A stretch of 64,000 nucleotides of DNA. It comes from Kalaharituber pfeilii (taxonomy: Eukaryota; Ascomycota; Pezizomycetes; Pezizales; Pezizaceae). The notes beneath the pieces were generated by a model. It was not told where the DNA came from. It made no database searches and saw only the letters and a list, made by a program, of their open reading frames with translations. Of the stretch, positions 3,414-56,790 are shown piece after piece. Both the position numbers and the translations under genes were made by a program. Where the stretch lies: assembly GCA_015179045.1 (NCBI GenBank), contig WHUZ01000143.1:30981-94980 (forward strand). The letters run 5' to 3'. Within the stretch, counting starts at the first letter, position 1, and every line of letters begins with the position of its first letter.

Positions 3414-3428
3414 CCATACGGTTGCCCT

Positions 3429-3493
3429 TCCATGGCCATGGCAAACAGGCCGTTATGTGATATTAAGAGAGAAAAGAAAAAAAAAAAAAAAAA
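3429..3493 (+). mobile_element. short retroposon, family A (diverged)
   Basis: A 65-bp insertion: a degenerate family-A tail (CCATGGCAAACAGG, TTATGTGAT) ending in an A tract. It is flanked by a 15-bp duplication at 3414-3428 and 3494-3508 that differs only by two transitions (CCATACGG versus CCGTATGG, both followed by TTGCCCT). The decay of element and duplication suggests an old insertion. Confidence 0.75.
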
Positions 3494-3855
3494 CCGTATG
3501 GTTGCCCTCGTACCTACCGAGCTGCTTCCATATCCTGCTATGAAACTTTCGAATTGCGCAGGCGCGGATCACGGGTTGCGCGACATGGACGAAATGTCGT
3601 AAGGCGTGGTGGTTTGGACACGGTAGGCGAGCGCGGCAAGTCTGTACGCCAGACACACGTCCAGGGTCCAAGGCAATGGTAATGAGCAGCTTGCGAAGCA
3701 ACCTAAACCCCGCACGCCAGGATAATCGTATATGCTTATCCCGACGGTACTTACCCACGGTCACTGGTAGTTCTACCTTTTGGTGCAACAGTTTGTGAAA
3801 CGGTCAGTTAACAACGCGGAATAGGTTCTCTTATGTACCTTGACCTCTCTATATA

Positions 3856-4244
3856 CAGTTTTCCCTTGCTATATAAAATCCGGCCTTTTTCGTCCGGTAT
3901 AGCAAGGTTCCGTTATAAAATAAAATGCTTGGCAGAATAGAATAGGGATGGGCAGCAAAAATAATGTAATTGGGAAGTGGACAGCCTAATTTAATTATGT
4001 AATGTTATGATAAGTTTAATACGCATCTGCAAGGTGAATGCAATGTGGGGTAGCCAAGATTGGACGTATTAGTGTTAGTGTATCCGGTATAGCAAATATT
4101 ATTTGTATGGAGACAGGGGGGTAAGTGCCTGGCAATTCCTGTCCGGTCCGGTATTCTTCGTATGGGAGCGGGATGTAGCAACCTGAGAGCATCCGGTAAC
4201 CAAGGTTTCCGGTACAACGAGTCCGGTATAGCAAGGGAAAACTG
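3856..4244. mobile_element. Tc1/mariner-pogo type MITE, left-arm copy
   Basis: A 389-bp element with inverted termini CAGTTTTCCCTTGCTATA and TATAGCAAGGGAAAACTG. TA dinucleotides flank it at 3854-3855 and 4245-4246, as expected for TA-targeting Tc1/mariner/pogo elements. The interior repeats CCGGTATAGCAA-like motifs and has no coding capacity. The mirror copy is at 11797-12185. Confidence 0.88.
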
Positions 4245-4795
4245 TACTTTGAAGTCAATTGATGATGTGATTTTTTTGGACGTCATTTTCTTTCTACCAG
4301 AAAGTGATCCAATATGCTGGGAAATAAAATTTGAGAAGCACTTATATTATGGCGGTATTCTAAAAAAATTTTAACATTTGCTTCAATTCATTTTCTTGCG
4401 GAGAAATCAAGTAAGTAATATTATACTCGAATGTCGCAGCGACGTAGATCTACAAATAATGGCAAACGCAAACGACAATGCAAACCAGTCGTCTCGCTCA
4501 TGTACACTTTATTTAAATTTACAAACACAAATCACCTCATACAATACTAGTAGCTCGTTATCCATAACGCAAGTCGAATTCCAACACTCCATTTTCGCAA
4601 CAATAGCTCCATCTATCTATCTATGCCCGCGTTGCGAAGTTCACTCCAAAACGCAACAACCTAAACCAAAATGGATACAATTTCCTAGCAACCCCAGCTG
4701 CCACAGTACCGCGTCCCTAACCACGCACCTACGGACTAGCTGCCTGTGCCCCATTGGTAACCTTCCAGGGGACAATTCCATCCCTTATATACCCA

Positions 4796-6133
4796 CTAAG
4801 GGCATTTCGCCAAACCATCAGTCAACGCCTTCTTCTCATTTTCCGAAATGCTGAGGCTGTACTGAGTCTTCACATTGACCCATCGAATCAAGTATGCACA
4901 ATGGAAGGGCTCTGTTCACCCCAAAGTCAGCGCATTCCCAAGGCAGGCCCAGGGCAGAAACACTTACTTGAAGTGGGCATCCACTGGTCCGGAGACCTGT
5001 CACCTTTACTCCTGTTCTCCCCCAATGACACCGTGAGAAGCTCGAGGCCGTCATAGTCATTTGCGAACGCTCTGAGGCGAGTTGCGGGCCAGGCATGCGC
5101 GCCAGAGATCCAAGCGTCTTTGAGTGGGACGAGATGGTCAACGTCCTGTGATTTTCATGATGTGTCAGTCAGCGAGCGGCGAAACGTTGGGCCGAGGTAG
5201 ACGAGATTATAAAACGTACAGCCTGCGAAGCTAAGGTGAGTGTTGTTCCCGAGTAGGGATCAAGCCATTTTCCGGTAGTCACAGTACATCCGGATGTTGG
5301 GTCTGCCCTACATCCAACACATCAGCCTAGTTGATCAAAACAAAACAAAACGACAGGAAAGACCAGTCTCATCGTGCAAACACTTACACTTGCGTCGCAT
5401 CCCGCTTCAACACCGTCTCTCTAGTTGTGCACCCCAACGTCGTAGCCCAACCACCAAAAGACGACCTCTGGAACGTCGGGGCAGAGGCGTTTGCAGCCCG
5501 CACTGTCAATGCTGCCAGCTGTGTCTTTGCCACTGCGCTCGTGCTGATCTTGGCCTTTATCGCCGTAGGGCCCTTCTTAATCGGTTTCGCCGTAGGGCCC
5601 TTCTTAATCGGTTTCGCCGTAGGGTCCTTCTTAATCGGCTTCTTGCCCGGGGGCTTTTGCACTTTACCGGGGTTCTGGGGCCCCAGGACAGGGTTCTTAG
5701 TCCTGCCTGGGGCTTTTGTTTTTGGTGTGGTGGGGTTCTTCTTGGGCTGGCCTGGGGCTTTTGTTTTTGGCGTGGTGGGGTTCTTGGGGCGGACAGGGGC
5801 GGGAGCACGTCGGGCGAGCGGGGCGTCGACAACGAAGGTGTCATCACGGATGGCTAGACGCCTGAGGTGCTCTGATATATCATCTAGGTCATCTTCTACA
5901 TCCTCCACATCGTCATTGTCTTTGTCAAAATCGTCATAGTCTTCATCATCGAAGGTGCTGGCAAAACCAGGCGCGCCGCCGGAACCGCTGTGGTGGCCCT
6001 TGTGATAGGAGCCAACATCAATGTCGTCTTCGAATTCTGCAATTGCGTCTGTAGAAGGAGGAATGGCTTTTCCTCGGGCGAGCGAGGCAGTGAAGCCTAG
6101 GAGGGCAATGAGCAGAACGGAGCGGAACTGCAT
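4796..6133 (-). CDS. secreted DUF1524/HNH nuclease, left-arm copy
   Basis: Mirror copy of the gene at 9908-11245; that entry gives the domain description. Exons on the minus strand are 6133-5388, 5307-5220, 5145-4968 and 4911-4796 (375 residues). All splice sites and the HNH motifs are conserved. The protein differs from the right copy at two residues visible in exon 1: Lys for Glu in the acidic region (base 5923) and Val for Ala in the Pro/Lys-rich linker (base 5688). The two genes are divergent, with starts about 3.8 kb apart across the palindrome loop. Both look intact. Confidence 0.88.
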
Positions 6134-6481
6134 GTTTGACAACTTGAGGACTGTTAATTGAGAGGTAACTTTAAAGTGGTATAGGCCTGAATGTACAAAT
6201 CAACGAAAGTTTCAACAATGGAAACTCTGCAAACAAAAATAAAGCAAGAAGCAATCGGTAAATGGACGACTGAGAAGTGAAAGAAGAACGTAAAGGAATC
6301 AACAATCTGGACCCGCCAAATTGTTTGAGTACGTGTTGGTCCGTTGGGGTGATCGGTAGCTGGCCAGGAATTCAAGTGAGCGGAATGGAGCAACCTATAT
6401 AGTGACTTGGAGGCCACGCACAGTTGAAACCATTTTGGGCTTGTCTGCGACATTTCGAGGCCGACACACTCACCGTTGCTA

Positions 6482-6519
6482 TTTTTTTTTTTTTTTTTTT
6501 ATATATATATTTCATTACT
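6482..6519 (-). mobile_element. minimal family-B retroposon, left-arm copy
   Basis: A 38-bp insertion read on the minus strand as AGTAATGAA, then alternating AT, then 19 A. It is flanked by CTCACCGTTGCTA (6469-6481) and CTCACCGTGGCTA (6520-6532), a 13-bp duplication with one mismatch. Only about nine bases of LINE-B tail remain. Mirrored at 9522-9559. Confidence 0.75.
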
Positions 6520-6842
6520 CTCACCGTGGCTAGCTTTTCTTCTACCGTTACTACAAGCAACCCGTACATAACCCAGCATCGGTAGGACACTTAGAGGCAG
6601 TGCATGCGTACTATAAGCCCGTGTCTGCAGAAACGTAGAACGCTTACCAGGTTCGGAAAGTTTCAACACTGTAATGCAACCGCACGACCTACATGATGTG
6701 TATACGGAGCTCACTTGCCCAGCTGATTATTACTTACCGATCGCGGATATTGTCGACGTCATGACATAGCCATCGTAGTACCGATACTTCTATATACGAA
6801 GCTTGCTAGAATCACTGGGCAGTGAGTTACCAAAATAACCCT

Positions 6843-6880
6843 ACCATGGCGAACAGCTGCAAGCGGGGTTACGTGAAATA
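6843..6880 (+). mobile_element. family-A tail relic lacking poly(A)
   Basis: CCATGGCGAACAGCTGCAAG and the following GGGGTTACGTGAAATA match the family-A tail closely, but no A tract follows. Probably an old insertion that lost its tail. Mirrored at 9161-9198. Confidence 0.6.
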
Positions 6881-7163
6881 ATCGCTCACATAAGCAAGGA
6901 GACGCGACATGGTTTAGGTGTGGGGCAATCTACCTAAGCTAGGCTCGGTTACCTTTCACCGGGGGCTCGGTAATGCAGATCTCGGTGTGCTGGGACCACG
7001 AATCGGTAACACCCCGTCGCATGTTGGCCAACTGCACTAAAACGAACGTTTCCATTATTACTATATGTACACATCGAAAAAATCAACTATGAAATGGAAA
7101 TACAGATACTGCAGGCTGCCGAAGGAATTCATGAATGACAAAATCTCAAATACTAATACTTGT

Positions 7164-7230
7164 ACTAGCCGGATTCAAAAGTGTTCGGACAAACTGAGGC
7201 TTTTCGGTAACACTTTCAAATCCGGCTAGT
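7164..7230. repeat. short inverted repeat (hairpin), left-arm copy
   Basis: ACTAGCCGGATTCAAAAGTG pairs with CACTTTCAAATCCGGCTAGT about 25 bp apart, giving a 67-bp hairpin-forming unit. It may be a tiny MITE, but no target duplication is clear. Mirrored at 8811-8877. Confidence 0.6.
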
Positions 7231-7507
7231 GATCGATCGCAGTGAATATGAAGTTGCCTAACACAAACCAGCATTGTTCACGACCGCGTAGCAGCAATGT
7301 AGCTTTTACAAGGCGCTTTCTCAATACGGCGCCCAAAATTGCCCTAACAAATACCGTCTTATCGCGCGCAGGTCACGTCCTGCAAATTCCGCCCTGTAGC
7401 AGCTGTCCGTCTTCCATTGTCATCAGCAGTGTAGTAACCCTGCATATCTCACACATTACCATTTACGGCTTATCCCTTAAAGCCACCACCAGCAAACTGC
7501 AGACCAT

Positions 7508-7571
7508 GCCCTGCCTTGGCGAACAGCTGCATGTGGGGTCACGTGAAATAAAAAAAAAAAAAAAAAAAAAA
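7508..7571 (+). mobile_element. family-A short retroposon at the inner edge of the left arm
   Basis: GCCCTGCCTTGGCGAACAGC and the rest of the family-A tail, then 22 A. The upstream target-duplication copy (mirror of 8534-8544) is present, but the sequence after the A tract is unrelated. The second duplication copy is therefore missing: the palindrome junction cut through the poly(A). Confidence 0.85.
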
Positions 7572-8461: not shown

Positions 8462-8493
<32 letters not shown>

Positions 8494-8533
8494 TTCACGT
8501 GACCCCACATGCAGCTGTTCGCCAAGGCAGGGC
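8462..8533 (-). mobile_element. family-A short retroposon with both duplications, right arm
   Basis: On the minus strand it begins GCCCTGCCTTGGCGAACAGC and ends in 30 A. ATGGTCTGCAG flanks it at 8451-8461 and 8534-8544; three further T extend the match. The right-arm locus therefore keeps the complete insertion, while the left-arm copy lacks one duplication. Confidence 0.9.
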
Positions 8534-8810
8534 ATGGTCTGCAGTTTGCTGGTGGTGGCTTTAAGGGATAAGCCGTAAATGGTAATGTGTGAGATATGCA
8601 GGGTTACTACACTGCTGATGACAATGGAAGACGGACAGCTGCTACAGGGCGGAATTTGCAGGACGTGACCTGCGCGCGATAAGACGGTATTTGTTAGGGC
8701 AATTTTGGGCGCCGTATTGAGAAAGCGCCTTGTAAAAGCTACATTGCTGCTACGCGGTCGTGAACAATGCTGGTTTGTGTTAGGCAACTTCATATTCACT
8801 GCGATCGATC

Positions 8811-8877
8811 ACTAGCCGGATTTGAAAGTGTTACCGAAAAGCCTCAGTTTGTCCGAACACTTTTGAATCCGGCTAGT
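8811..8877. repeat. short inverted repeat (hairpin), right-arm copy
   Basis: Mirror of 7164-7230. Confidence 0.6.
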
Positions 8878-9160
8878 ACAAGTATTAGTATTTGAGATTT
8901 TGTCATTCATGAATTCCTTCGGCAGCCTGCAGTATCTGTATTTCCATTTCATAGTTGATTTTTTCGATGTGTACATATAGTAATAATGGAAACGTTCGTT
9001 TTAGTGCAGTTGGCCAACATGCGACGGGGTGTTACCGATTCGTGGTCCCAGCACACCGAGATCTGCATTACCGAGCCCCCGGTGAAAGGTAACCGAGCCT
9101 AGCTTAGGTAGATTGCCCCACACCTAAACCATGTCGCGTCTCCTTGCTTATGTGAGCGAT

Positions 9161-9198
9161 TATTTCACGTAACCCCGCTTGCAGCTGTTCGCCATGGT
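9161..9198 (-). mobile_element. family-A tail relic, right-arm copy
   Basis: Mirror of 6843-6880; no poly(A). Confidence 0.6.
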
Positions 9199-9521
9199 AG
9201 GGTTATTTTGGTAACTCACTGCCCAGTGATTCTAGCAAGCTTCGTATATAGAAGTATCGGTACTACGATGGCTATGTCATGACGTCGACAATATCCGCGA
9301 TCGGTAAGTAATAATCAGCTGGGCAAGTGAGCTCCGTATACACATCATGTAGGTCGTGCGGTTGCATTACAGTGTTGAAACTTTCCGAACCTGGTAAGCG
9401 TTCTACGTTTCTGCAGACACGGGCTTATAGTACGCATGCACTGCCTCTAAGTGTCCTACCGATGCTGGGTTATGTACGGGTTGCTTGTAGTAACGGTAGA
9501 AGAAAAGCTAGCCACGGTGAG

Positions 9522-9559
9522 AGTAATGAAATATATATATAAAAAAAAAAAAAAAAAAA
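9522..9559 (+). mobile_element. minimal family-B retroposon, right-arm copy
   Basis: Mirror of 6482-6519: AGTAATGAA, alternating AT and 19 A, between GCTAGCCACGGTGAG and TAGCAACGGTGAG. The A tract is the same length as in the left arm, which is notable for a homopolymer. Confidence 0.75.
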
Positions 9560-9907
9560 TAGCAACGGTGAGTGTGTCGGCCTCGAAATGTCGCAGACAA
9601 GCCCAAAATGGTTTCAACTGTGCGTGGCCTCCAAGTCACTATATAGGTTGCTCCATTCCGCTCACTTGAATTCCTGGCCAGCTACCGATCACCCCAACGG
9701 ACCAACACGTACTCAAACAATTTGGCGGGTCCAGATTGTTGATTCCTTTACGTTCTTCTTTCACTTCTCAGTCGTCCATTTACCGATTGCTTCTTGCTTT
9801 ATTTTTGTTTGCAGAGTTTCCATTGTTGAAACTTTCGTTGATTTGTACATTCAGGCCTATACCACTTTAAAGTTACCTCTCAATTAACAGTCCTCAAGTT
9901 GTCAAAC

Positions 9908-11245
9908 ATGCAGTTCCGCTCCGTTCTGCTCATTGCCCTCCTAGGCTTCACTGCCTCGCTCGCCCGAGGAAAAGCCATTCCTCCTTCTACAGACGCAATT
10001 GCAGAATTCGAAGACGACATTGATGTTGGCTCCTATCACAAGGGCCACCACAGCGGTTCCGGCGGCGCGCCTGGTTTTGCCAGCACCTTCGATGATGAAG
10101 ACTATGACGATTTTGACGAAGACAATGACGATGTGGAGGATGTAGAAGATGACCTAGATGATATATCAGAGCACCTCAGGCGTCTAGCCATCCGTGATGA
10201 CACCTTCGTTGTCGACGCCCCGCTCGCCCGACGTGCTCCCGCCCCTGTCCGCCCCAAGAACCCCACCACGCCAAAAACAAAAGCCCCAGGCCAGCCCAAG
10301 AAGAACCCCACCACACCAAAAACAAAAGCCCCAGGCAGGACTAAGAACCCTGCCCTGGGGCCCCAGAACCCCGGTAAAGTGCAAAAGCCCCCGGGCAAGA
10401 AGCCGATTAAGAAGGACCCTACGGCGAAACCGATTAAGAAGGGCCCTACGGCGAAACCGATTAAGAAGGGCCCTACGGCGATAAAGGCCAAGATCAGCAC
10501 GAGCGCAGTGGCAAAGACACAGCTGGCAGCATTGACAGTGCGGGCTGCAAACGCCTCTGCCCCGACGTTCCAGAGGTCGTCTTTTGGTGGTTGGGCTACG
10601 ACGTTGGGGTGCACAACTAGAGAGACGGTGTTGAAGCGGGATGCGACGCAAGTGTAAGTGTTTGCACGATGAGACTGGTCTTTCCTGTCGTTTTGTTTTG
10701 TTTTGATCAACTAGGCTGATGTGTTGGATGTAGGGCAGACCCAACATCCGGATGTACTGTGACTACCGGAAAATGGCTTGATCCCTACTCGGGAACAACA
10801 CTCACCTTAGCTTCGCAGGCTGTACGTTTTATAATCTCGTCTACCTCGGCCCAACGTTTCGCCGCTCGCTGACTGACACATCATGAAAATCACAGGACGT
10901 TGACCATCTCGTCCCACTCAAAGACGCTTGGATCTCTGGCGCGCATGCCTGGCCCGCAACTCGCCTCAGAGCGTTCGCAAATGACTATGACGGCCTCGAG
11001 CTTCTCACGGTGTCATTGGGGGAGAACAGGAGTAAAGGTGACAGGTCTCCGGACCAGTGGATGCCCACTTCAAGTAAGTGTTTCTGCCCTGGGCCTGCCT
11101 TGGGAATGCGCTGACTTTGGGGTGAACAGAGCCCTTCCATTGTGCATACTTGATTCGATGGGTCAATGTGAAGACTCAGTACAGCCTCAGCATTTCGGAA
11201 AATGAGAAGAAGGCGTTGACTGATGGTTTGGCGAAATGCCCTTAG
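9908..11245 (+). CDS. secreted DUF1524/HNH nuclease, right-arm copy
   Basis: Four exons: 9908-10653, 10734-10821, 10896-11073 and 11130-11245 (375 residues), with GT-AG introns of 56-80 bp. The N-terminus is a signal peptide (FRSVLLIALLGFTASLARG). Next come an acidic Asp/Glu-rich stretch (about residues 25-75) and a basic Pro/Lys/Thr-rich linker with duplicated NPTTPKTKAPG and three KPIKK-type nonamers. The C-terminal third carries the DUF1524 (GmrSD C-terminal, HNH/His-Me-type) pattern: DVDHLVPLKDAW, SGAHAW, FANDYDGL, NRSKGDRSPDQW and a late Cys. Known members cut DNA or RNA; an extracellular nutritional, competitive or effector role is inference. The start is the ATG at 9908, which gives a clean signal peptide. 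A TATATA at 9640 and an AATAAA at 11528 flank the gene. An inverted copy lies at 4796-6133. Confidence 0.92.
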
Positions 11246-11796
11246 TGGGTATATAAGGGATGGAATTGTCCCCTGGAAGGTTACCAATGGGGCACAGGCA
11301 GCTAGTCCGTAGGTGCGTGGTTAGGGACGCGGTACTGTGGCAGCTGGGGTTGCTAGGAAATTGTATCCATTTTGGTTTAGGTTGTTGCGTTTTGGAGTGA
11401 ACTTCGCAACGCGGGCATAGATAGATAGATGGAGCTATTGTTGCGAAAATGGAGTGTTGGAATTCGACTTGCGTTATGGATAACGAGCTACTAGTATTGT
11501 ATGAGGTGATTTGTGTTTGTAAATTTAAATAAAGTGTACATGAGCGAGACGACTGGTTTGCATTGTCGTTTGCGTTTGCCATTATTTGTAGATCTACGTC
11601 GCTGCGACATTCGAGTATAATATTACTTACTTGATTTCTCCGCAAGAAAATGAATTGAAGCAAATGTTAAAATTTTTTTAGAATACCGCCATAATATAAG
11701 TGCTTCTCAAATTTTATTTCCCAGCATATTGGATCACTTTCTGGTAGAAAGAAAATGACGTCCAAAAAAATCACATCATCAATTGACTTCAAAGTA

Positions 11797-12185
11797 CAGT
11801 TTTCCCTTGCTATACCGGACTCGTTGTACCGGAAACCTTGGTTACCGGATGCTCTCAGGTTGCTACATCCCGCTCCCATACGAAGAATACCGGACCGGAC
11901 AGGAATTGCCAGGCACTTACCCCCCTGTCTCCATACAAATAATATTTGCTATACCGGATACACTAACACTAATACGTCCAATCTTGGCTACCCCACATTG
12001 CATTCACCTTGCAGATGCGTATTAAACTTATCATAACATTACATAATTAAATTAGGCTGTCCACTTCCCAATTACATTATTTTTGCTGCCCATCCCTATT
12101 CTATTCTGCCAAGCATTTTATTTTATAACGGAACCTTGCTATACCGGACGAAAAAGGCCGGATTTTATATAGCAAGGGAAAACTG
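11797..12185. mobile_element. Tc1/mariner-pogo type MITE, right-arm copy
   Basis: Mirror of 3856-4244, with the same termini and TA flanks. Confidence 0.88.
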
Positions 12186-12410
12186 TATATAGAGAGGTCA
12201 AGGTACATAAGAGAACCTATTCCGCGTTGTTAACTGACCGTTTCACAAACTGTTGCACCAAAAGGTAGAACTACCAGTGACCGTGGGTAAGTACCGTCGG
12301 GATAAGCATATACGATTATCCTGGCGTGCGGGGTTTAGGTTGCTTCGCAAGCTGCTCATTACCATTGCCTTGGACCCTGGACGTGTGTCTGGCGTACAGA
12401 CTTGCCGCGC

Positions 12411-12470
12411 CGCCCAGTCCATCACCTCCGCCAACGTTCTCCCCCCACCTTATATACTCGCTTATGATTT
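12411..12470 (-). pseudogene. LINE-B ORF2 C-terminal remnant
   Basis: The minus strand reads AEVMDWAAR, matching the C-terminus of LINE-B ORF2 (VEVLDWAAS at 2095, AELLRWADM near 34180, AEMLQWAGRP near 46430). It stops at the palindrome border, so the outer breakpoint fell in or next to a LINE. Confidence 0.55.
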
Positions 12471-14579: not shown

Positions 14580-14656
14580 TTTTTTTTTTTTTTTAATTCA
14601 CGTGACCCCGCGTGCAGCTATTCGCCATGGCAGGACCCCTAGGTCTAGACCCTCAA
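14580..14656 (-). mobile_element. family-A LINE tail, slightly longer copy
   Basis: A T tract followed by the inverted family-A tail (CACGTGACCCCGCGTGCAGC, CCATGGCAGG). It continues into upstream LINE-A sequence (CCTAGGTCTAGACCCTCAAAG), so it extends past the usual 5' start of the short copies. No target duplication was identified. Confidence 0.7.
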
Positions 14657-21840: not shown

Positions 21841-22054
21841 AGTGGTAGCTGATCGGTGCACTCATGTAGAACCTGCGATCAGAGGAACACAAACTGCGAT
21901 CAGATCAACACAACATAACAACGACCACCAACAGGAAAACAATGGCTCAGAGGGATCGTGTATGTATTGAGGAATTCCAAAATGATATATTTTAGTGATG
22001 GGGGGATGATCTGGACACGTGGGAGCTGATGGGGTATATGTATAGGCTCCGGTT

Positions 22055-22111
22055 TTTTTTTTTTTTTTTATTTCACGTGACCCCGCTTGTAGCTGTTCGC
22101 CATGGCAGGGC
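22055..22111 (-). mobile_element. family-A short retroposon in helicase 5' region
   Basis: 57 bp: on the minus strand GCCCTGCCATGGCGAACAGC through an A tract. The exact 13-bp duplication ATAGGCTCCGGTT is at 22042-22054 and 22112-22124. It begins at the same base as the other family-A short copies. Confidence 0.92.
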
Positions 22112-23045: not shown

Positions 23046-23107
23046 TTTTTTTTTTTTTTTTTTTTATTTCACGTGACCCCGCTTGCAGCTGTTCGCCATG
23101 GCAGGGC
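23046..23107 (-). mobile_element. family-A short retroposon within ORF1 b
   Basis: A T tract plus the inverted family-A tail, beginning (minus strand) TGCCCTGCCATGGCGAACAG. The target duplication matches at 11 of 13 positions: CCCTGGGGTGGTT at 23035-23047 and CCCCGGGATGGTT at 23109-23121. Both differences are transitions. Confidence 0.82.
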
Positions 23108-42794: not shown

Positions 42795-43341
42795 CAATGA
42801 ATCCAACAGGCCAGGCCGTGAGGGCCGCCTGGACCGTCCCCCAGGCCATTCAGGCCGGCCCAGGCGCCCTGCCATGGCCAACAACTGCATGCGGGGTCAC
42901 GTGAAAAAAAAAAAAAAAAAAAGGCCCGGCCCAGGCCATTCAGGCAGGTTCGAGCCAGCGTTTACCAGATTGTTTGAGTATTTAAATCAGTAGAATCTCT
43001 TGTATATCTAGAATTTTAGACAGCAGCAGTCTACGACTTTGGTCAAGTATGTATCACACTTTATATTCAAGTATATATACTAACAAATATTTTAGAAATG
43101 ACGGCACCTTCCAGATAATACAACAGATGGGACTCAATTCTGCGATGATGATACCTAATGGGTGACTGTCAATTACTGAGAGTGGAAATATCAAAAGCTA
43201 ATTCACCTGGGTTAAATTCTAAAATCGCTTAAATTTACGTAAATGACTAGTCTCGTGCCCAGACGCTACGTAAATGACCTGGTTGGCCTGGGCCGGCCTG
43301 AATGGAATGGCCTGCACCGGCCTGGCTTGTTGAATCCATTG
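42795..43341. mobile_element. hAT-like MITE, copy 1
   Basis: Termini CAATGAATCCAACAGGCC and (inverse) CAATGGATTCAACAAGCC. The exact 8-bp duplication CTGGAAGC is at 42787-42794 and 43342-43349. The subterminal regions are rich in GGCC/CAGGCC palindromes; the AT-rich centre matches copy 2 (58478-59259) in inverse orientation. CA(A/G)TG-type ends and an 8-bp target are hAT hallmarks. Carries a nested family-A insertion. Confidence 0.9.
42866..42922 (+). mobile_element. family-A short retroposon inside the MITE
   Basis: 57 bp starting GCCCTGCCATGGCCAACAAC, then GCATGCGGGGTCACGTG and A. Flanked by GGCCGGCCCAGGC (42853-42865) and GGCCCGGCCCAGGC (42923-42936), one single-base indel. Confidence 0.88.
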
Positions 43342-46594: not shown

Positions 46595-46754
46595 CCATAG
46601 CTCCGGTGCGGCCTTAATTTTCCCTTGTAACTCCGGCCTTGAGTGTTTCTCCGAGCTGTAGCGGGTTCTGCAAAAACTCCGGTCCATGCCTGAGGCACTA
46701 TCTCCTCACTCTGACCATGCTGGCATTTCTTGTAATACACATCTATGCCCAACC

Positions 46755-46814
46755 GCCCTGCCATGGCGAACAGCTACAAGCGGGGTCATGTGATAAAAAA
46801 AAAAAAAAAAAAAA
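46755..46814 (+). mobile_element. family-A short retroposon (type example)
   Basis: 60 bp: 40 nt starting GCCCTGCCATGGCGAACAGC and ending GGGGTCATGTGAT, then 20 A. The exact 14-bp duplication ATCTATGCCCAACC is at 46741-46754 and 46815-46828. The cleanest copy in the window. Confidence 0.96.
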
Positions 46815-47179
46815 ATCTATGCCCAACCCATTTTTCATTGCCAGACTGCAGCTATCGGTTTATCAGCCAGAATTCTCACTAGCAGCTTTACAGGTCAATA
46901 TGGGTGGATATACCCTTCGTGGGTAGACCCTGACATAAAGGAGACAATAGAAAGATAAGGAATATTGACGACATGCAGTACCAAGAGATAAAGTCAGCTG
47001 AATCAAAGGGAAATTCTATCTCTACTCACCTCATTAACTCCACCACGGGGTCCCCCTCTCCTACAACCAAACCTGCTTTTGTGTGCATAGTACGCGTAGT
47101 CACCTGTATGTACACGACTTCTGGGATATCCCCTTATTCCCGGATTTATTTTGGTAGAACAGTACGAACGTGTTCTTTT

Positions 47180-47235
47180 GCCCTGCCATGGCGGATAGCT
47201 GCAAGCGAGGTAACATGACACACACAAAAAAAAAA
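47180..47235 (+). mobile_element. family-A short retroposon
   Basis: GCCCTGCCATGGCGGATAGC, CAAGCGAGGTAACATGAC, a CACACA variant and ten A. The exact 10-bp duplication GTGTTCTTTT is at 47170-47179 and 47236-47245. Confidence 0.88.
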
Positions 47236-51046: not shown

Positions 51047-51296
51047 TTTTTTTTTTTTTTTTTATTTTTTTTTTTTTTTTTATTTCACGTGACCCCGCAT
51101 GCAGCTGTTCGCCAAGGCAGGGCCCCTGGGTCTAAGCCCTCAAAGCCCGGAGGCAGGCTTACCTAACTACCCCTCCGCCGTCATCTCTACAAACGGAAAA
51201 CTCAACCCCTCCCCGCCCCACCTCCCCGAGGCACTAAAATAACTACAACTTTCCTCCACCGCCACCCTCGAACGAACGAAAAATCGCCCCCTCCCC

Positions 51297-54200
51297 CTAC
51301 ACCTTCAACGAACCAAAAAACTCTCCCAGCACATCCACCGCCTCCCCGTTCTCCTGCTCTGCCGTCCACTTCTTCTCGTCAATATCCTCCCACCTTCCCC
51401 ATCCTTCCGGGTACTCTACCTCCTCACACCTGAACGCCAGGTGGTCTGCCGTTTGCTTCTCTCCACACCCGCACCTGCTCCCCTCTGCCGCCTTCCCTAT
51501 TCTGATATCCCATTCCTTCCCCATCCCCTTCCCCGTCCTCAACCTGGTGAAAGCAGTGGTTGCCCCCCTGCCCCACCTCATCACCGCACCCCCTCCGTAC
51601 CCCACCTCCCTCCTCTCCGCTGCGCGCAGTTTTTTCCACTTCTGGCGCAACCCTCCTTCCGTCACCACCGACTTCCCGATCCTGTCCGCCGCCCTCTTCG
51701 CTTCGACGTCCGCCGCCTCGTTGCCAGCGATACCGATGTGCGCCTTCACCCACATCAGCTTGACGTCCCCCCCTTCTTTCTTTCTCTCCGCGACTGCATC
51801 CACCACTCTCCTCAGGTCTCCGGTTCGTGCTTTCCCCAGTCTCCCCGCCTTCCTCACCGCCGCGATTGCTGCCTGTGAGTCCGTCAGGATGACCAGGTTC
51901 GCCGGTGCTGGGACCGCCTTCCCTATCCCCATTCTCATCCCTCTCACCTCCCCATCCCACACCGTCGCCCCTGTCCCCATTTCTTCTCCCCCCCCGCCGT
52001 CCCACTTCCAGAATCCCCCTCCCACTCACCCCTTCTCATTCATACTACCATCTGTGTACACCGCCCCCCCCCCCTTGCGTTGCCCAAAAGATTGACGACT
52101 CCCACTCCTCCGCGCTTCCCCCTTTGCGTCCTTCTCTCGTCACTTCTTCCACCTCCGTTCTCGCACATCCCCCCCCCCATGACACCTCGTCCACCCCCTC
52201 CGGCATGACGAAGCTAACTGTGCTCTGCACCCTCCCTGCCACCGACTCGAAACCGTCCTTCTTCTGCATCGCCCATCCCACGCTCCAATCTCTCCAATCC
52301 CTGCCTCTCTCCTCCACATCCCCCTCTCCCCTGAAGTCCGCGGTCCAGATATCCCCGCATCCCTCCGGATCCCCTATACTCCTTGCCACCAGCCTCGCCT
52401 GCGCCGCATCTAAAGCTGTCTCCGCACTCTCCACTCCGGCGATCCAGTTGACTTTCTGCATCGCTGCTCCGTGGACAGCGCCCGTGGCCTTCTTCAGTAC
52501 CTGGTACTGAATTTTTTCCATCTCCCTTCTCCATTCCTTCTGCCCTCTCCACCCTATTTCCGAACCCCACATCATCACCGCCCTTATCATTCCCGTGTAT
52601 AATTGTCTCCAACTCCGTGGGCTCATTCCCCACTGCCCCGCGCCCACCCCCACCATAGCACCCGCGAGCTTTCTTGCCTTCTCTATCCTCGCCTTCCAAT
52701 GGAAGTCGAAGTCTAGAGTCGCATCGAAGATTACTCCCAGCCATTTCACCTTCTCCACCTCCTTTCTCTTTCTCTTCCCCTTACCAAACACGATATCCTC
52801 ATGCTTCGTTTTCTCCAAAGGCACCCCCCACCTCTCCGCCACCTCCCCCGTGATCCTTCCCAGCTTTACTCTCAATCTCTCTAGGTCCCTCGTCCCTTCC
52901 CAGTCCCACGCCGTCACATTAATGTCATCCACGTATGACGGGACCTCGCACTCTACCTCCGGACATTCTCTTCTCAACGTCTCCTCCAGGTCCTCCAGCA
53001 TCGGCGCCAGCCATATGAGCAAAAATGACCGGTGACAACGGCGAACCCTGCGGCACCCCCACGTTCGCTCTCCCCTCCCCCCTAATCACCCCATCCCATT
53101 CCACTGTGAACCTTCTTCTCCTGAAAAAACCCTTTAACCACCCTCCCCACCTCCTAGCCATCCTGTCTCCCTGTATCCCTCTCAACACCTCCTCCCCTTT
53201 CACATTGTTGAAGCCCCCCCTTACGTCGTCTAGGCTCCAAACCGACCCCCCCTTCCTTGCCAGGCACCGCTGGGTTTTGGTAACCGCTCTTATCATTGCT
53301 TCCGCAGCATTTCGCCCTTTTCTGCCGCCAAATTGATGTCGGTGGAAGAGCTGGTCTGCTTTCTGCAACTCGTTCGCTACCACTTTCTCTCCCAACTTCG
53401 CCACGCAGTTAATCAGGTTTATCGGTCTCCAACTCCTCACCTGGGACTTGTCCTTCCCCGGCTTCGGAATCATGACTACCTTGCTTAACTGCCACTCTTC
53501 CGGGGTCCTCCCCGCCGCCATCTCTTCCGCCATCTGTGTCATTAGCTCTCTTCCTAATGGCGTCTTCATCACCAGCTTCAAGAGCTTGTATGAGACTCCA
53601 TCGGGTCCCGGCGCCGACACGTTGCTCGTCCCCCTGAGGGCATCTTCTAGCATACCCACAATCTTTTCCACTTCATATCCCGGTCCTTCTCCCTCCCCCT
53701 CTCCTCCTCTCCCTCCTCCCCATTCTGCCTCTCTTCCCACTGAAAGTTCCTCGAGACCAGTGCGGAGCACTTGTCTCGATCCGTCCTCAGCTCCTCCCCC
53801 TCCTCCCCTGTTAGCTTCCCCATTGTTGCCTTCAACCTCCACGGGTCCTTTGCTACCCTGGCAACTGCCCACGGGTCTTTCTCCCCCATCTCCTCTGCGA
53901 AGGCCCTCCAGCACTCCTCCTTTTCTTTCCTAATGTTCGCCTTGAGGGTCCTCTTCGCCTCCTTCCATCTCTCATATCTCTCTGGGTCCATCCCCTTCGC
54001 CCCTTGACCCACCCCCCTCTCCCCTCTGCCGACACCTTCTTCCGGAGGCCCGTTAACTTCTTGGACCACCACTTCTTACTCCTTCTGCATATTCTCACCT
54101 CCCGGCTGTGCCTCTCCTTCAAGCTCAAGAGCTTCTCATACGGGGTCTCCCCTGGTAGTCCTCCGAGCCACTCCCCTTTCTTTTCCCCGTCCCATTCCTT

Positions 54201-54937
54201 CATATCTTCCACGAGATCCTCCACCTCTTCGAAATTCACCCTTCTTCTCTTCTCTTCCCCCCCCTCCTCCACGTCTTCCCATGCCGTGCCTATGGCTGCG
54301 TGGTCCGAACTCAGAAACGTCAGCTCTCTCTTCCTTTTTACCTCCTCTCCCATCCCCTTCTCCCAGCACAAGTCAATAACCGACTCCTGCACCTCCCCCC
54401 TTCTCTGTCTCCTCCACGTTGCCTCCCCTCTGCGCTCACCAGCTCCCATCCATCCCCTTCAAAGAACTCCTTCACTGCTACCCCTCTCCCATCATTTTGT
54501 ACCCCCTTCCCCCCCCACGCTTGGTGGTGGGCATTCCAATCCCCCACGATAATCCCCCTCCTCCCGTCCCATTCTTTTTCTATCTTTCCCAGGACGTTCT
54601 CCATCTCCTCCTTCTTCCAATTGGGCTGTACGTATATTCCTCCTACCCGTCTCTCGCCCACCGCCCCCCAAACCCAATTCTTTTCTTCTTCCCTCACCTT
54701 CACCTTCTCTGTCCTCCCTTTGCCACATGTAACACTACTCTTGTCCCCTCCCTCACCTCCGACTTTATGTCGAAAGATGGATGAGTCGTCGTTACCCAGC
54801 TCCCCCCCCTTTTCTCCACCCACGCTTCTAACACGAAGAAAAATATGAAAACCTTCCCTACTCGCTCATTCCAACGCCACGTGCGTGTTGGCCACTCCGC
54901 CTTGCACGTTCTGACTCCCTATCTTCCACTTCACCAT
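51297..54937 (-). pseudogene. LINE-A ORF2: endonuclease, reverse transcriptase, RNase H
   Basis: Order on the minus strand: APE-type endonuclease start GSQNVQGGVANTH (near 54910), VGGIYVQPNW, GDWNAHHQAWGGKGVQNDGR, SDHAAIGTAW (catalytic Asp-His). RT: GPDGVSYKLL, WRPINLINCVAKLGEKVV, SLDDVRGGFNNV, GVPQGSPLSPVIF and YVDDIN with both catalytic Asp. Then GVIFDATLDFDFHW and RQLYTGMIRAVMMWG. RNase H: TDSQAAIAAV, KAHIGIAGNEAADVEAKRAA. The C-terminal cysteines CGCGEKQTADHLAF may bind zinc. At least five frameshifts break the frame, several in G or C runs. Overall length and domain order match Tad1-group elements. Confidence 0.9.
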
Positions 54938-56669
54938 GTTGATTTCGGGGCTTCTGTCCTCTCATCCAGGCTCGGGGCCCAGGCGGAATCCTCAATGCCC
55001 TCTACACTCTTCTTCACCCCTTGCATCTTTTCTGCTCCCTCGTCCCAACTCTCATCCTTCGCTTTCCCTTTGGCCTTCGTCTTTGCCTCCCTCAGGATCG
55101 CGCTCAACTCCTCCGCTTCCTTTTGACTTCCAGCGTTGAAAACCACTCCCCCCTCCTCCTCCTCCTCCTCCGTGTTTCTCCTCTTCATGCCTTCGTTCCC
55201 ACCTGCCCCTGCTCCCTTTCTCTTCTCCGTGATCGCTCTAAATGCCCTCTTCGCCTCCTCGTCACTGCATTCCTTGGCGACATGCCCTTTCTTTTTACAC
55301 ACTAGGCACACAATTCCTCCAGTTGCCTGTTGTCCTTGCGTGCCCTGTGTCTGTCCTAACCCCCCTCTACTCCCTCCCTGTGCGCTAGCCCCTTTTCCTT
55401 TTGGTCCCTTTGGGGCATTTGCTGGGGGGGGGGTCTTTATCACCCCTTCTGGTAAAGGCTCCTCTCTCCTCCAATTCTGTCGAATCTCCGGCCTCCTCCC
55501 CTGCTGCTGCTTTCCTCTTGGGTTCCAGAGCTGTACCCATCTCGGCTTTCCAAGAATCATCACTCTCTCCTTGCACAGTCTCTCTGCCTCCTCCGCGTCT
55601 TTTACCTCAAAGGTCACCGAGCTCGACCTTGCCGTTTGCGGATTCGGTGCCCAGGCGAATCTGTGTGGCCCCCGGTTGCCTGCCTTCAATCCCGGGTTCT
55701 CTTTCTTGACCAGTTCAGTGACCACTGCGTCTGTCACTGCTCCCTTCTGTACCGGCACCCCCTTTATCACCGGCTTCACTCCCTTCTTGTTTTCCACCCA
55801 CACCCTTACCGTGTCCTTGTACATCGCCCTGATGAGGGCATCGCATTTCTTCAACACCTCCTCCTCTTTCATCTCTGTGGGTACCTCCTCAATCTCCCAC
55901 ACCCTCTCGAACACGCTAACTTCCCCGTGAATGTTTAGCCTCCTCATTCGGAACATGGGTTTCTTCTCCGTCGCCTCCCAGTCCCGTCTTGCCTGCTCAA
56001 ACACCTTCGTCCCCTTCTCCTTCTCCTTCTCCCACGTCTCCCCCTTCGCCACCACTCTCTCTTTGTGTTGAGAGGTGACCTGCATTTTCCTCATCTTTTC
56101 CCCCCCCTACGATTTGCCATCCCTCCCCCTCCTGTTTCACCTCCGCTGTGAGGAAACCATGATTCTCCCGCTCAATCCTCTCCGCTTCCTCTTTAGCTTC
56201 TTTTGCTCTCTTCGTGTCCTCCGCCTTGCTAGACTCCAAGGCTTCTCTTTCCAAACTTGTTCGCGAGCTCTTTTGCCAACAGCAACTCCCGCTTCTTGAG
56301 TTTCTGTCGTGCGTCGAGGTTGTTGTGTGCCTCGATCGCTGCTTCTTGCTTGCGTTTTTCCTCCTCTTCCGCCTTCCTTTGTTCCTCCGCCTTCTTCGCA
56401 ATCCTCCTCGCCTCTGCCTGTCTTTCCCTCTCCATTTCCTTCTCCCTATTCTCCTTCTCTACCTGTCTCCTCTTCTTCTCCGCTCTGTCTTTTTCTTCCG
56501 TCGTCGCGAGCCCCATGTGTGCATGCATACTCACGACCATATCCTCCAGCCTCTTAACCCTCTCTGCCATCCCCTTTTCTTCTCCGACGCCGACGTTTTT
56601 CCGTACGTCCTCCGCCCACATTCTCATCCCCTTCGCTGCATTCTCTGTCAGCTGTTCCTCCGCCACCAT
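54931..56669 (-). pseudogene. LINE-A ORF1: coiled coil, gag-like region, zinc knuckle
   Basis: Begins near 56669 (MVAEEQLTENAAKGM...), with a long Glu/Lys/Arg coiled coil (EKENREKEMERERQAEARR) across about residues 60-130. A gag/RRM-like region follows (IHGEVSVFERVWEIEEVPTE; NRGPHRFAWAPNPQTARSSS; ERLCKERVMILGKPRWVQLW). A single CCHC knuckle, CLVCKKKGHVAKEC, precedes an acidic tail. Two frameshifts (near 56230 and 56090) break it. The ORF1 stop overlaps the ORF2 start in ATGGTGA (54937-54931). ORF1 proteins package the RNA. Confidence 0.85.
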
Positions 56670-56790
56670 AGCCCTTTTCCATTCCGGTCCTGCTCCCCCG
56701 CCTCCTTAATAAACTCTTGCCACGTGTATCCGAGGCACCCTTCCATTAGTTTTGGCCACCTCCGCCTCCGCCTTACGGACTTTCTTCATT

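Follow-up and report, generated by a model that had tools for sequence, protein, structure and literature searches.

Short poly(A)-tailed units with a fixed start at the base of a LINE 3' hairpin in Kalaharituber pfeilii

In the genome of Kalaharituber pfeilii we found a short unit, 39 element bases followed by poly(A), that is real, abundant and sharply defined, with its 5' end fixed at the base of the 3'-terminal hairpin (H3) of a LINE family, here called LINE-A. The reading we favour, at about an even chance and from sequence comparison, is that the unit represents H3 plus the poly(A) of a LINE with endonuclease, reverse transcriptase (RT) and RNase H, and that it would have been retroposed alone by the LINE machinery. 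Throughout, the window is the whole 64,000-nt stretch of DNA in which an earlier note had described such units (G000:C50:30981-94980, in a 78.0-Mb assembly of 360 contigs).

The 3' hairpins of LINE-A

LINE-A, the presumed source family, shows matches to endonuclease, RT and RNase H in separate frames and ends in three hairpins, H1 (AAGCCTG/CGGGCTT), H2 and H3, followed by poly(A) (Table 1). RT homologues were found, no ORF1 homologue was found at E <= 0.001, and the domain set of LINE-A is one that we take to be that of Tad1/I-type LINEs. H3 consists of an outer stem of 7 bp and an inner one of 4 bp, separated by a 2/3-base internal loop and closed by a 5-base loop. The pairing of CCCTGC with GCGGGG proposed in the earlier note is right, the stem reaching 7 bp when G1 or A1 is paired with U32, and the first base of the short unit is indeed the 5' base of this stem, at the base of the hairpin.

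Folding z-scores of H3 against shuffled sequences are modest (-3.0, -1.0 and -1.9). In eight hand-picked long copies from three subfamilies all H3 cells are paired, the stem being nearly invariant and the loop variable (GAACA, GAATA, TTGGC, CACGT, TTAGT). The same eight copies have two H2 pairs changed on both sides and no two-sided covariation in H3, and covariation over the whole structure is weak: 58 of 500 shuffles match the number of two-sided pairs, and sliding the alignment by +1 gives equally many changed cells (5). Because H3 has no two-sided change, the support for it is its pairing together with its likeness to a described recognition stem-loop.

In the excerpted text of PMC5135761, the consensus recognition stem-loop of stringent LINEs has its loop 4-6 bp away from an asymmetric internal loop, and in that of PMC4176376 the stem plus loop is bound by a protein region between endonuclease and RT. 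H3 has the dimensions of this type, its recognition by protein being putative. Like the 3' stem-loops of ZfL2, UnaL2 and SART1 as these excerpts present them, it is a 3'-end hairpin whose small loop is separated by 4 bp from an asymmetric internal loop, and among subfamilies its stem is conserved and its loop variable; the hairpin is a recognition signal in those elements (PMC5135761, PMC4176376), whereas here the hairpin itself is retroposed.

Short units in the window

The six insertions named in the earlier note were all found, measuring 56-72 bp from the first base to the end of the tail and all starting with GCCCTGCC (Table 1). Their flanking target-site duplications (TSDs), of ~10-14 bp, were identified by script for the units at 46755, 47180, 22111 and 8533, and by eye, in imperfect form, for those at 42866 and 23107. 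For the palindrome pair the claim of flanking duplications holds at 8533, which has both TSDs, and fails at 7508, which has just the left one, the inner edge of the left arm of the inverted repeat falling in its poly(A). The window also holds two degenerate units beyond those named (3424-3493 and 9163-9203), and the final four bases of the TSD of the former, GCCC, equal the first four of the unit. The upstream continuation reported for longer copies was seen at 14636, 27358, 37079 and 62515, and in LINE-A at 51123.

Table 1. Coordinates in the window of LINE-A, its terminal hairpin and the hairpin units (TSD, target-site duplication)
Feature	Positions	Strand	Remarks
LINE-A, presumed source family	51047..56705	-	upstream limit approximate
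H3 (39 bases), 3' end of LINE-A	51085..51123	-	equals short unit
Left TSD ATCTATGCCCAACC	46741..46754	+	
Short unit, H3 hairpin (GCCCTGCC...GCGGGGT) then poly(A)	46755..46815	+	TSD by script
Right TSD TCTATGCCCAACC	46816..46828	+	first A fused with tail
Short unit	47180..47235	+	TSD GTGTTCTTTT on each side, by script
Short unit	42866..42922	+	imperfect TSD GGC(C)GGCCCAGGC, by eye
Short unit	23046..23107	-	imperfect TSD, by eye
Short unit	22053..22111	-	TSD AACCGGAGCCTAT, by script
Short unit, right palindrome arm	8462..8533	-	both TSDs (AAACTGCAGACCAT), by script
Insertion of 8462..8533, left-arm palindrome copy	7508..7571	+	only left TSD; arm stops within poly(A)
Degenerate short unit (GCCCTTCC...)	3424..3493	+	imperfect TSD
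B-type degenerate hairpin unit ACCCTACC..., end GTGAAATAATCGC	9163..9203	-	without long poly(A)
H3 and tail of longer copy	14580..14636	-	upstream homology only ~35 bases

The palindrome is an inverted repeat of 3.95 kb (3626-7571 and 8470-12414) with 99.92% identity whose left arm has its inner edge inside the short-unit poly(A); it is either an artefact of assembly or a genuine palindrome for which the poly(A) was the seed. Each arm carries a 271-aa frame whose start resembles a secretion signal and which contains KNPTTPKTKAPG repeats (5384-6199 on the minus strand, 9842-10657 on the plus strand). Three C-type copies in the window (27358 on the minus strand, 37079 and 62515 on the plus strand) share TTTGTT immediately before the AAGCC of H1 and then diverge, which perhaps marks another fixed start near H1.

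Genome-wide distribution of 5' ends

To avoid selecting loci by their 5' end, the genome was searched with a pattern from the 3' end only, GCRRGGTNAYGTGAAATAAAAAAAA, which gave 420 exact matches in the 78-Mb assembly and 0 for its reversed control; the pattern starts in the H3 3' arm and required 8 A, so that starts inside that arm are invisible to it. Reading 90 of these loci in listing order (L031-L120, omitting C47, C48:77206 and three in C50, the window's contig), we found 59 short copies, 58 of them distinct, and 31 longer ones. The hairpin 5' arm is kept in 90/90 loci, with a base change in some, and no copy starts between the two arms. Two short loci (L107 and L114) have identical flanks, and L114 was dropped; the other 57 differ. 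An approximate similarity search gave 146 matches and is not exhaustive, missing the window copies at 7508, 23107, 42866 and 51123; the 90 loci were counted independently of it. Compared with viral contigs, the unit gave no match.

Starts were also counted with masked patterns, in which the three bases preceding a given base must differ from the LINE. Such patterns are unequal in length and strictness across positions; they gave 625 5' ends at the H3 base, 1 four bases ahead of H3, 0 inside H1 and 0 at the 5' base of H2, the last two patterns fitting only A-type copies that extend past H2 (155 such exact copies). Not every hairpin therefore marks an end, H2 giving none. Exact units number 1605 in total, 366 with CAGGG immediately upstream and 1239 without it, the latter possibly including longer copies mutated there; these exact counts suggest more than 1000 copies that start at H3. 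The fixed start that the earlier note had claimed from the window, as opposed to random truncation, is thus borne out, the genome as a whole giving it stronger support than the window does, and neither an even spread of 5' ends nor descent from one duplicated locus, either of which the note had named as speaking against it, was found.

TSDs, tails and junction bases

In 56/58 distinct short copies a TSD is found no more than four bases from [G/A]CCCTGCC, none being found for the other 2; in the loci read, the 5' end is thus fixed to within about one base at the first pair of the H3 stem. The TSD abuts the unit exactly in 31, overlaps it by one base in 12 and by two in 1, and is separated from it by one extra base in 8 and by two to four in 4. 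The poly(A), with a mean length of 23.1 in short and 23.8 in long copies, adjoins the right TSD, and with both features the short units have the form of products of target-primed reverse transcription (TPRT). In this they resemble 5'-truncated LINE insertions, with which they share poly(A), TSDs mostly of 12-14 bp and a sequence that is the LINE 3' end; they differ in that the start is fixed at the hairpin base and that only 39 element bases are present.

Where one extra base separates TSD and unit it is, in the RNA sense, T in 8, C in 7, G in 2 and A in 0 copies, and two to four extra bases occur in five copies; this sample (22/100) mixes an unbiased set with loci picked by similarity to the short unit. 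A longer LINE-A template would supply G as the extra base, and 15/17 are not G. We therefore lean towards mostly non-templated additions, and so towards a discrete RNA end. Among subfamily C junctions an extra base is present in 1/18.

Longer copies

A TSD of at least 10 bp was identified for 12 of the 31 longer loci, and none was found for 19 within the 577-1477 bases examined; most of the TSDs found have 12-14 bases. Two of the 12 (L055 and L087) are starts at H1, and L087 has 15 T between the TSD and the H1-start element (AAGCCTGCC), a long run that may have been added to the end of the cDNA without a template. The other ten start 122, 329, 332, 471, 525, 577, 614, 1356, 1412 and 1424 bases upstream of H3. 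Since the three near 1356-1424 represent one common start, at which a distinct ~1.4-kb element begins at full length, the scattered starts are seven; for the one at 577 (L049) BLAST homology covers 59 bases only. Four loci (L039, L066, L082 and L098) agree in their right flank except for one base and seem to derive from the duplication of a single locus.

The ~1.4-kb element is subfamily B. Its copies L041, L050 and L058 share a 5' start (GCRACAACCACTT...) and carry the LINE 3' hairpins, and L050 has an ORF1-like frame of 319 aa, the only kind of frame noticed, with no RT-like frame noticed by eye. It resembles the HAL1 kind, an ORF1-only element, and its RNA may meet the LINE machinery in trans, which is a guess.

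A second start at H1, and subfamilies A, B and C

In subfamily A, 32 masked starts lie at the 5' base of H1; with a mask pass rate of ~27/64 we estimate that this corresponds to about half of the 155 A-type longer copies. Twenty candidates were fetched from the head of the list, skipping C4:131832 (L055 itself), and 13/20 have, by script, an exact TSD of at least 8 bp within 2 bases of AAGCC. The remaining 7/20 have imperfect TSDs by eye, L132 with five extra bases and L130 weak, and two of the fetched starts (L127 and L129) share their flanks and represent one event. The H1 stem of subfamily B, which keeps 5 of the 7 pairs present in A-type H1, gave 1 masked start at the single place counted.

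Subfamily C, which has other hairpin loops, gave 147 masked starts at the H3 base; of 20 fetched, 18 have an abutting TSD by script, L142 has one by eye and L151 none. The fixed H3 start is therefore present in three related 3'-tail subfamilies, in B only rarely. Among the first 100 listed, the short-to-long ratio is 7:12 for A-start haplotypes (B type) versus 69:12 for G-start haplotypes (p = 5e-5); subfamily C also starts with A and yields many short copies. Derivation of a first G from the cap is not supported, given that A-bearing LINE subfamilies give short copies starting with A (L070 and L108, and 20/20 in C).

Alternative folding was considered as a cause of the few short B copies, using long copies of subfamilies A (15), B (15) and C (5, or 4 with 200 and 400 bases) and leaving aside one copy of no assigned subfamily. 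Given 50 bases of context, H3 is predicted to form less often in B than in A/C (p = 0.02); with 100 and 200 bases it forms more often in B (p = 0.02 and 0.0006), and with 400 there is no difference. With this inconsistent direction the explanation was rejected.

How the fixed start may arise

We give even weight, for and against, to the proposal that a discrete and stable hairpin RNA, of 39 nt and polyadenylated, arises from LINE RNA and that the naked recognition hairpin would thereby be a highly successful minimal retroposon, outnumbering its longer source copies ~2-3 times. LINE RNA would be cut or trimmed from the 5' side down to the stable hairpin, which would probably be protected by being held by an ORF2 protein that recognizes it; the product would be a discrete poly(A) RNA of 39 nt (or ~76 nt), which the LINE protein would use for TPRT, copying to its true 5' end, and the cDNA end would sometimes gain one or a few non-templated bases. 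The H3-base and H1-base starts both lie on the 5' side of a stem. RT approaches a stem from its 3' side and reaches the 3' arm before the 5' arm, so that a structural stall would be expected at the former and not at the 5' base, and because the starts are on the 5' side and the junction bases appear non-templated, run-off at a true RNA 5' end is favoured. The second start, at the 5' base of another hairpin, makes us lean the same way, and the fit of H3 to the stem-loop of stringent LINEs is consistent with a discrete RNA. Counting against RNA trimming are the few short B copies, which predicted folding does not consistently explain, the rarity of extra bases in C, the lack of starts at the H2 base and of two-sided covariation in H3, and the habit of 5'-3' exonucleases such as Xrn1, which usually halt some bases before a structure and not at its first pair.

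The earlier note had offered two readings, a strict stop of RT and a discrete polyadenylated RNA of ~40 nt; the fixed start, its place at the hairpin base and the independence of the insertions stand, and of the two readings we lean towards the discrete RNA. A stop of RT at the hairpin base is a possible, though in our view doubtful, alternative to RNA fragments: in such abortive TPRT the enzyme would copy the anchoring hairpin of a full LINE RNA and drop off at its 5' base. The stop would then coincide with the end of the hairpin, H3 is similar to the stem-loop to which stringent LINE proteins bind (in the excerpts cited above), and the longer copies, with similar tails and TSDs, show that longer templates are used too. 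The anchor, however, would be lost once the 3' arm is unwound, before the 5' arm is copied, so that RT would not be expected to stop with a precision of about one base; 15/17 single extra bases are not the templated G; H1 has a separate fixed start; and subfamily B, with a UUCG H2 that should stall RT nearby (the UUCG hairpin being very stable), makes fewer short copies.

We regard as unlikely a SINE-like family in which the 39-nt unit is transcribed from start sites of its own at a few master loci, the only copies to multiply. Short copies do exceed longer ones among the loci read (59 versus 31), 1239/1605 exact units lack CAGGG upstream (some of them perhaps mutated longer copies), many copies are identical, 36 sharing one haplotype, and four 39-base haplotypes (with 5, 4, 2 and 2 short copies) have no longer copy among the 146 script matches. 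Against this, one of these short-only haplotypes (4 copies) is that of the window LINE-A, and at four variable sites every haplotype with at least 2 short copies also occurs in longer copies, so that a single SINE lineage is not supported at these four sites; nor is one needed, because three subfamilies show the fixed start. Short copies occur in each of the subfamilies A, B and C, the second start at H1 would require masters of its own, and no Pol III box was seen by eye in the 39 bases.

Cleavage at the stem base, by an endonuclease (an RNase P-like activity, for example) or by the RNA itself, would be a version of the discrete-RNA proposal with another nuclease, and we consider it very improbable. 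The boundary falls precisely at the first pair, H3 and A-type H1 both have 7-bp stems, and B-type H1, with its five pairs, shows a single masked start at one place; but stem length alone suggests such a cut, and a tRNA is much larger than the unit. We give almost no credence to a coincidental cluster produced by segmental duplication or by ordinary random 5' truncation, and both were rejected, for although longer copies do have scattered starts and one duplicate pair occurs among short loci, 625 5' ends fall at the H3 base versus 0, 0 and 1 at three neighbouring positions, and 58 distinct flanks were found in 59 short loci.

Relation to known elements

We recognized no earlier description of such units in the open-licence literature searched. 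A close comparison is with SINEs that share a LINE 3' tail, which, as far as the excerpt of PMC3747384 goes, are likewise short, non-autonomous and carriers of the LINE 3' hairpin; the units described here differ from them in being without a 5' head or, by eye, a Pol III promoter, and in originating from several subfamilies. The short unit would be a SINE in the loose sense only. Tailless retropseudogenes, in the portion of PMC5322556 that describes them, share TSDs and defined truncation points that follow structure, but they are 3'-truncated in single-stranded regions and lack a tail, whereas our units are 5'-truncated at a stem base and end in poly(A); with poly(A) and a complete 3' end present, this assignment was rejected. 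In the MINE chimeras of Magnaporthe, according to the excerpt of PMC2104539, LINE 3' ends are also moved by fungal LINE machinery, but there another RNA is fused with 5'-truncated LINE copies.

Implications

The 5' truncation of LINEs is commonly ascribed to chance loss of RT or RNA. In this family, most copies of the 3' end start at one base set by RNA structure, and their 5' ends are a natural record of RNA processing or of RT release, of perhaps a thousand independent events. They suggest that a template as small as one hairpin and a tail can serve a LINE protein. If the discrete-RNA proposal is true, the unit would be a minimal retroposon, consisting solely of the signal read by the reverse transcriptase.
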